The translations under genes were made by a program, and so were the position numbers. Under the pieces are notes generated by a model. It was not told the DNA's origin. It saw only the letters and a list, made by a program, of their open reading frames with translations, and ran no database searches. From a virus, in IMG/VR virus record IMGVR_UViG_3300044644_002087, positions 1 through 41,740 of that record: 41,740 nucleotides of DNA, one strand, 5' to 3'. Below, piece by piece: positions 6,053 to 9,986 of this stretch; within the stretch, counting starts at the first letter, position 1; each line of letters begins with the position of its first letter.

Positions 6053-6081
6053 TTGACAATTGTTCCGTGTTGTGTTATACT
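6053..6081 (+). promoter_or_regulatory. sigma70-type promoter (early), P4
   Basis: TTGACA (6053-6058), a 17-bp spacer, then TATACT (6076-6081). It is the best combination with a strong ribosome site (AAAAGGAG before 6116), so the gene at 6116 is probably highly expressed. Confidence 0.88.
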
Positions 6082-6115: not shown

Positions 6116-6544
6116 ATGGCTCGTGGTAAATCTGATAAACTTGCACCGTTTCAAAAATTGATGACCGTTATGGTATCTGGCAAAGCAGTAACGATTGAAG
6201 AAATCGATGCCACCCTTGGCAAAGAGATTCATATGTATCGTTTATCAACCTATATCTGGTTGATGAAAACTAATGCCAATGCTGTGGTTAAGGCAATCAA
6301 AGATGGTCGTAAAATCACCGCATATCAAATAATGAATGTGGCTGATGTGAAAGATTATTTGAAGCGTGTTGGCGCAACATCGTTTACACCTGGTCAATCA
6401 CAAAAGATTGTCAAGGCTAAAACCAAGGCTGCAGCTGCACCTAAGGTTGCTAAACTGAAAGATTTGAAAGCACAACCTGTTGCTGAAGAAGTGACAGAAG
6501 AAGTTATGGAAGTAACCGAAGTTACTGAAAAAGCAGTTGCTTAA
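6116..6544 (+). CDS. winged-helix-like protein with basic linker and acidic tail
   Basis: This 142-residue protein has three parts. About 85 residues at the N-terminus (SGKAVTIEEIDATLGKEI, then MYRLSTYIWLMKTNANAVV) look helical, like a small winged-helix or HTH domain. A Lys/Ala-rich stretch follows (KIVKAKTKAAAAPKVAKLK), then an acidic Glu/Val tail. The gene is a single unit with consensus promoter P4 and a strong ribosome site, so an abundant early DNA-binding or host-takeover protein is plausible. The next element, a structured RNA, begins seven bases after the stop and may be on the same transcript. Function is inferred, not shown. Confidence 0.7.
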   Translation: MARGKSDKLAPFQKLMTVMVSGKAVTIEEIDATLGKEIHMYRLSTYIWLMKTNANAVVKAIKDGRKITAYQIMNVADVKDYLKRVGATSFTPGQSQKIVKAKTKAAAAPKVAKLKDLKAQPVAEEVTEEVMEVTEVTEKAVA

Positions 6545-6550
6545 TTTTTT

Positions 6551-6715
6551 AAAGATGGGGGAGTTGCGAGACTTCATGGCGAGCTGTCAGTCGGAGATGC
6601 CGAGTTCTATGAACTTTCAAAATGGATCGTCCGCAGTAAGTCTCATAGAGGCGAGGTCCGCTAATTCTTAAACAACAGCGACTATCGGGAGATAGCCAGC
6701 GTGCCCCTTATCTTT
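6551..6715 (+). ncRNA. candidate structured RNA, unassigned class
   Basis: Between two genes lies a 165-base stretch that is GC-richer than its surroundings and closed by a long-range stem. AAAGATGGGG (6551-6560) pairs with CCCC (6704-6707) and ATCTTT (6710-6715), with a two-base bulge. Inside are GAGACTT/AAGTCTC (6568-6574 with 6638-6644), TCGG-AGATG-CCGA (6591-6603), AGTTC-TAT-GAACT (6603-6615) and CTATC-GGGA-GATAG (6682-6695). The nested, perfect pairings argue for a folded RNA or a structured 5' leader of the gene at 6738. A 38-codon frame (6555-6671) exists but has no ribosome site. I do not recognise the class. Confidence 0.6.
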
Positions 6716-6737: not shown

Positions 6738-6965
6738 ATGAGTGTATTAGATTTAAAAATGAGACCTTTAACGGTGTTTGATGCTTCAAATAATGCTCAT
6801 AGAGAGTATTATGCAGAATTTGTAAGAAGAAAAACATGGGGATATTGTCCAGTTAGATTTGCGGTTGAAGGTACAAGCCAAACAGACTTGGTCACTTACA
6901 TAGAACGGTGTTTGGTTGATTACTATACAATGAAAGAATTCAAAGTAAAGAATACACTAAGATGA
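6738..6965 (+). CDS. small conserved-type phage protein, unknown
   Basis: A 75-residue protein (core RREYYAEF-type, then FVRRKTWGYCPVRFAVEG). It follows the structured RNA by 22 bases with only a weak ribosome site, so the RNA could influence its translation. It overlaps the MazG-like gene as ATGA. It resembles hypothetical proteins of T4-like aquatic phages. No function known. Confidence 0.7.
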   Translation: MSVLDLKMRPLTVFDASNNAHREYYAEFVRRKTWGYCPVRFAVEGTSQTDLVTYIERCLVDYYTMKEFKVKNTLR

Positions 6966-9450: not shown

Positions 9451-9590
9451 ATTGTTTTATGTGGTGGTACGAACCGAGTATTCGGTAGCAAAAGCGAAAG
9501 CTGACCATCACACCTAATTCGTTGAAGGTAATTGAAAGGTGTTCTGGACTCGGGTTCGATTCCCGACACCTCCACCAAAAGGAGATATGA

Positions 9591-9659
9591 TTGAAACCAT
9601 ATGAAGTAATAGTAATCACACTATTAACAATTTTGATTTTGGTTCATGTCTTTTTTTGA
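9591..9659 (+). CDS. possible 22-residue membrane peptide in the tmRNA spacer
   Basis: A TTG-started frame exactly fills the spacer between the two tmRNA pieces. AAGGAG (9579-9584) lies six bases upstream, directly after the CCA end, and the TGA stop is one base before the GGGGG of the coding piece. The peptide is almost all hydrophobic (PYEVIVITLLTILILVHVFF) and could span a membrane. AT-rich DNA often encodes such stretches by chance, and the spacer is expected to be cut out, so this is tentative. Confidence 0.25.
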   Translation: MKPYEVIVITLLTILILVHVFF

Positions 9660-9743
9660 TGGGGGTGACCTGGTCTCGACAGGGCAATGAGTAGAAAACT
9701 GGAGAATCGTCAGACAAGGCGTAAAAATCAAAACAAAGTAAAC

Positions 9744-9776
9744 GCAAATGACGAAAGATTTGCTCTAGCCGCTTAA
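9744..9776 (+). other. tmRNA tag reading frame
   Basis: GCA to TAA encodes ANDERFALAA and a stop. With the alanine brought by the charged tmRNA the tag is A-ANDERFALAA, ending in the LAA degron that ClpXP recognises. From memory this exact tag occurs in betaproteobacteria. Confidence 0.93.
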
Positions 9777-9833
9777 GGATAGATGAGGTTTCGCAGAGTG
9801 TACCTTATTACCCAATCACTCTGCAAGAATTCT

Positions 9834-9986
9834 ATGGCAAATTACAAAAGAAAAAAATCAAAACGAGTTTGTAAGTGTACCTTGTGTACCAAATTTCGTT
9901 GGTTAGGTAATTCGTTACAAAGAAAAAGAATCTCTGATATTCGTAATATTGATAAAGTGAAAAGTTATGAAGATTTACATCAATAA
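9834..9986 (+). CDS. small basic Cys-containing protein
   Basis: A 50-residue protein starting MANYKRKKSKRVCKCTLCTK. I start at 9834 rather than 9783, because the upstream frame runs through the 3' stem of the tmRNA. The motif RVCKCTLCTxxRWLGNS, with basic flanks, is one I recall from small proteins of T4-like cyanophages. The three cysteines may hold a metal. It follows the tmRNA within about ten bases. Function unknown. Confidence 0.7.
   Translation: MANYKRKKSKRVCKCTLCTKFRWLGNSLQRKRISDIRNIDKVKSYEDLHQ

Follow-up and report, generated by a model that had tools for sequence, protein, structure and literature searches.

The phage-encoded structured RNAs GOLLD and ROOL often lie near tRNA islands, and their function is open (PMC12286853). 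T4 RNA C and RNA D (species 1 and 2) are small stable RNAs within the phage tRNA cluster. The HDV-like theta ribozymes of gut phages are small motifs adjoining phage tRNAs, which fold into a nested double pseudoknot with a cleavage site at the tRNA 3′ end (PMC10879173), while the put RNA of phage HK022, ~70 nt long, is made of two stem-loops that are not enclosed by a common helix (PMC9378689). The element that we describe here is reminiscent of all of these, as a putative small structured RNA encoded by phages, often near tRNAs, of which some copies directly follow a promoter. However, GOLLD (RF02032) and ROOL have many hundreds of nucleotides and a complex secondary structure, whereas the element has 50 to 165 nt and one junction. 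In contrast to theta ribozymes, it is predicted to form a nested three-way junction located 5 to 12 nt from tRNAs, and in contrast to put RNA, this junction is closed by a helix. The Rfam model of GOLLD finds matches elsewhere in the same loci but none on the element, and our covariance models R1 and R2 (see below) find no match in the T4 tRNA region (68000–74000), which sets the element apart from RNA C and RNA D. GOLLD, ROOL, and T4 RNA C/D are thus of the same broad kind as this predicted RNA, but none is related to it by model search.

The window, i.e., the whole stretch of DNA that we analyzed, comes from an IMG/VR virus record, of which it is a 41.7-kb fragment, and encodes a phage single-strand DNA-binding protein. 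The element lies in ~190 bases between a 142-aa ORF (6116–6544, + strand) and a 75-aa ORF (6738–6965). No ORF of at least 50 aa on the + strand is found in this interval or covers 6551–6715, in agreement with a sequence-only reading that had seen there a stretch without convincing coding sequence, folded into an unassigned phage RNA. The 142-aa gene, which belongs to a family without assignment, is preceded by a σ70-like promoter read from the sequence (TTGACA-N17-TATACT, 6053–6081, + strand), and the RNA would belong to the transcript from this promoter. The 142-aa protein has no PHROGs match, a variable tail rich in Lys, Ala, and Pro, and homologues in many freshwater phages, and its gene is the usual direct upstream neighbor of the RNA in the phage group of the window.

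The pairing sequences AAAGAUGGGG...CCCCUUAUCUUU are present in the window at the reported stretch. The thermodynamic fold of the 165 bases, which had been proposed as a check, was uninformative: the minimum free energy is −49.4 kcal/mol (z −0.76), and since 41 of 200 shuffled sequences fold equally well, the single-sequence fold is no evidence for structure. Searches with Rfam 15 (4227 families, E ≤ 10) found nothing over the element in the window or in 12 further member loci, and ARAGORN assigns no tRNA or tmRNA identity to it, finding only a tmRNA at 9485–9867 in the window. Since the folding energy is unremarkable and Rfam gives no match, the window sequence alone is insufficient, and homologues have to decide.

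Homologues were reached by several routes. A search with the 142-aa protein identified 17 related viral loci, which are independent of any RNA pattern because they were found via the protein. Behind this gene, most loci have an intergenic stretch that is visibly related, in some cases only 66 to 73 nt long. A first pattern search returned 116 stretches, from which visual inspection removed those without the remaining structure. When 42 short members were aligned, 8 of 12 pairs already had changes on both sides, and the covariance model R1, built from 14 of these members, found 93 matches in 92 sources. A second pattern, leaving helix P1 and most of P3 free, gave more distant members, while a third search fixed only the sequence of P1 and P2. 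This gave ~70 relatives with a common structure in IMG/VR viral contigs, and two alignments, one combined (A4) and one of 12 long members (A5). Finally, model R2 was built from an alignment that includes the window as one row, and its match to the window element spans 6554–6711, with 65.8 bits and an E value of 1.8e-16. Since the window is one of the rows of R2, this match shows fit and not independent discovery.

The predicted family fold is a three-way junction in which P1 and a variable P2 arm are adjacent, followed by a UUAAAC linker and a variable P3 arm that begins with a covarying R-Y pair and a bulged A. The window element, modeled on this fold and lying entirely on the + strand, extends from P1 to P1′ over 151 nt (6557–6707), its P2 being enlarged, whereas minimal members have ~50 nt. 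P1 is formed by GGGG (6557–6560) and CCCC (6704–6707), usually followed by UUA. P2 starts with P2a, where GAGU (6561–6564) pairs with AUUC (6664–6667), and continues with P2b, where GCG (6566–6568) pairs with CGC (6659–6661). The 3′ side of P2b is followed by a 2-nt bulge (6662–6663), usually CU or UC in relatives. The ~90 nt between the two strands of P2b (6569–6658) represent a lineage-specific enlargement that is absent or short in most relatives and was aligned in A5. The J2/3 linker UUAAAC (6668–6673) leads into the base of P3 (6674–6676), with A6674 paired to U6702, A6675 bulged, and C6676 paired to G6701. P3 ends in a CUAUC-GGGA-GAUAG hairpin (6682–6695), of which few pairs are left in minimal members, and a single invariant G (6703) forms J3/1.

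This structure is strengthened by extensive covariation in A4, where standard pairs occupy 98.6% of base-pair cells and 13 of 17 pairs show two-sided changes. The alignment has a covariation score of 0.295, compared with 0.132 in shuffled alignments (none of 500 reaches it, in a test that is inflated by the relatedness of the sequences), and at most 0.073 when partners are slid. In distant members, GGGG/CCCC in P1 is replaced by GGGA/UCCC, AGGA/UCCU, or AGGG/CCCU. All four pairs of P2a show two-sided changes, exemplified by GAGU/ACUC, AACU/AGUU, UGGC/GCCA, and UGAU/AUCA. Covariation also links the position that follows UUAAAC to the one preceding the last G (54 A-U, 15 G-C, 3 G-U, no mismatch). 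Since G-U pairs occur, 16 of them in P2a, the + strand is the folded one. A weighted mutual-information ranking is led largely by pairs of the consensus helices and contains no extra long-range covarying pair beyond the nested helices, with the proviso that invariant bases cannot covary. A4 was fitted to R1 and leans toward its structure. Nevertheless, the conclusion holds despite this bias and the inflated shuffle test, given the slid control, the mutual-information ranking, and changes that are independent in P1, P2a, P2b, and P3. The conserved three-way junction predicted by comparison is therefore safely considered real. When applied to 12 close relatives, RNAalifold gave a different, mostly invariant fold, which was dropped in favor of the structure seen across distant members.

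UUAAAC is invariant in A4. This invariance is partly by construction, as is that of the bulged A and the next C, because the first two patterns fixed these bases. However, UUAAAC is also found in the loci identified via the protein and in the true members from the P1/P2-only search, with a single UUAAAU (L247). The outer arms, on the contrary, are hypervariable across relatives.

These comparisons also refine what the sequence-only reading had proposed. Within its closing helix, the GGGG/CCCC part is conserved, but the family does not share the outer AAAGAU/AUCUUU helix, since pairing of the flanks is no better than in a swapped-flank control; it is a peculiarity of the window lineage or chance. 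Of its nested hairpins, P3 belongs to the conserved core, while the other inner hairpins are part of the lineage-specific enlargement of P2. A conserved reading frame or a lack of compensatory changes had been named in advance as evidence against an RNA. Neither was found: arm lengths vary by non-multiples of three, and compensatory changes at the stems are abundant among homologues. The search for covarying pairs in related phages, also suggested beforehand, revealed covariation exceeding that in all 500 shuffles.

In the searches made, the family was met only in viral contigs, and together with the covariation and the lack of an Rfam match, this distribution upholds the view of an unassigned structured phage RNA. 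One exact pattern run against 84,980 bacterial and archaeal genomes gave four matches, none with the rest of the element. R2, run with stricter filters and no positive control on 398 genomes from the phylum to which a Glaciecola assembly belongs, gave none, and BLAST of several queries against cultured phage records gave short partial matches only and no member. These searches of bacterial genomes and cultured phages would miss divergent members. A likeness of GGGGAGU..ACUC to a 16S rRNA helix was dropped, since no model matches in the Escherichia coli rrnB operon. T4-type capsid genes are present in 9 of the 70 RNA-bearing records; many of these records are fragments, and carriers of the RNA likely include phage types beyond those with T4-type capsid genes. 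The motif is absent from the literature on phage tRNA-associated RNAs, put RNA, and phage tmRNA that we consulted, which covered few subscription papers and leaves room for an earlier publication. By comparative analysis, the element of the window is thus a putative representative of a hitherto uncatalogued family of small folded RNAs carried by many environmental bacterial viruses. We rate the element as a categorically new class of RNA or, if phage RNAs near tRNA islands are viewed as one kind, as a new member of that kind.

Copy number and genomic context are informative about the possible role of the RNA. There is one copy per record in 46 of 48 viral records, the longest having 239 kb, and this speaks against a cis signal of general use that many operons would require. 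Two related records have a tandem pair (L106 12735–12892 and L119 1–148), in which 12 nt separate a full copy from a minimal downstream copy whose P3 is very short. The settings vary, the element being found after the 142-aa gene, 5 to 12 nt from tRNAs in arrays, or beside σ70-like promoters. A homologue of the 142-aa gene occurs in only 31 of the 70 RNA-bearing records, and the RNA is therefore not dependent on it. In loci with tRNAs, all are on the strand of the RNA. A tRNA is located within 20 nt on the 3′ side in 15 of 75 matches (0.34% at random positions) and on the 5′ side in 11 of 75, related loci being treated separately so that these counts are not independent. A permuted tmRNA scores above the Rfam cut-off in 37 of the 70 RNA-bearing records and resembles the phage tmRNA of the window, likewise of the permuted type (9485–9867, + strand, tag ANDERFALAA), which is a syntenic neighbor of the RNA. 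In all 32 records with both positions tabulated, it lies 1.5 to 7.4 kb downstream of the RNA on the same strand, while L196, with the tmRNA upstream, is an exception; this proximity may be partly due to shared descent.

The tRNA arrays harbor other noncoding sequences as well. GOLLD occurs in the same arrays as the three-way-junction RNA in L168, L190, and L197. A second conserved hairpin RNA of 47 to 117 nt, with a closing stem AAGCACAUU...GUGUGUUU and no Rfam match at gathering scores, is also found in these arrays (L168 8117–8190, L178 387–460, and the − strand of L041 and L146), in some cases immediately before the three-way-junction RNA. A third conserved noncoding stretch, GUGUGACCC...GGGUGGU...GCAAUGCGA, lies just downstream of the RNA or ~1 kb off in phages with tRNA arrays (L179, L181, and L168, with a similar sequence in L039 and L106).

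Some copies of the RNA appear to have a promoter of their own. In L089 and L180, a σ70-like promoter ends 10 to 11 nt before the element, and in L180 a second promoter follows directly, making the RNA an almost stand-alone unit. Upstream promoters with at most two mismatches are found in 6 of 59 distinct upstream regions (one of the six being weak), compared with a mean of 1.2 and a maximum of 5 in shuffled regions. Since this excess is modest, it is the single cases that carry the promoter argument.

Since a fixed core with changing neighbors, one copy, and an occasional promoter of its own are more readily explained by an RNA gene than by a cis signal, our preferred explanation, held with about even confidence, is that the element is a discrete small structured RNA gene, probably trans-acting in the phage-infected cell. 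Such a gene, present once per phage genome, would be carried by any codirectional transcript, whether a protein operon, a tRNA array, or one from its own promoter. The RNA would then be released from its precursor, probably by the RNases that process neighboring tRNAs, and might act through its junction core, which would bind a protein or ribonucleoprotein of the host or the phage. Given that the RNA clusters with phage tRNAs, tmRNA, and sometimes GOLLD, the infected cell's machinery for translation or stable RNA would be its most likely field of action. However, many members lie inside multigene transcripts, as would also be expected of a cis element, and clear upstream promoters are found in only a few loci.

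An unlikely but sensible alternative is a small cis ribozyme, self-cleaving or otherwise processing, that cuts its own transcript in a role like that of theta ribozymes. Its small minimum size (~50 nt), its position among tRNAs, and its compact junction, where some ten bases that are unpaired or bulged do not vary, would suit a ribozyme. However, a single copy per genome would process one junction in an array of 20 tRNAs, many copies have no adjoining tRNA, and no Rfam ribozyme model matches the element. Moreover, its distance to tRNA ends is 5 to 12 nt, versus 0 to 1 for most theta ribozymes (PMC10879173). A theta ribozyme would further be expected to cleave no more than 5 nt from the 3′ end of a tRNA, but here the nearest upstream tRNA in arrays lies mostly at 6 to 12 nt from the matched stretch and at 5 nt in L196, and often there is none.

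Less probable still is a cis element for processive antitermination, of the put RNA or rRNA leader type, shielding untranslated tRNA/tmRNA stretches. This would be in line with its position upstream of tRNAs and tmRNA, and with L043, L070, and L120, where the element comes after a promoter and a GUUCUUUAAAA sequence that we take to be boxA-like. On the other hand, a new promoter follows the element at once in L143, L166, L180, and L186, so that the next unit could not be served, and in several arrays the element is located midway or after the tRNAs. While its length is similar to that of put RNA (PMC9378689), the latter has two separate stem-loops instead of one three-way junction closed by P1.

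We consider it improbable that the element is a 3′ end stabilizer or an unconventional terminator of the upstream transcript: it often lies directly after a stop codon and has CCCCUUA at its 3′ end, but there is no U tract, the closing helix has 4 bp, a terminator would not need an invariant junction, and some copies come directly after promoters. Finally, a structured leader or riboswitch controlling the 6738 gene, as the sequence-only reading had also proposed, is very improbable: the element does end ~30 nt before the start codon of this gene, which has a weak ribosome site, but there is no conserved downstream gene, relatives having a MazG-like gene, other unrelated genes, tRNAs, or another promoter instead.

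Returning to the trans-acting RNA gene, we only tentatively go further and propose a new class of phage RNA, widespread among environmental phages, that might act in trans, via its three-way-junction core, on the ribosome, tmRNA, or tRNA-targeting defenses of the infected cell, a core that, in the same tentative proposal, would be unlike that of any described RNA. The absence of the RNA from the cultured phages searched may be why it escaped notice earlier, and the covariance model can now be used on any phage genome. Strongly supported by comparison, this class of structured RNA extends the short list of RNAs encoded by phages (tRNAs, tmRNA, GOLLD, and ROOL) and raises the question of why different phages keep exactly one copy of it, often beside RNAs of translation.
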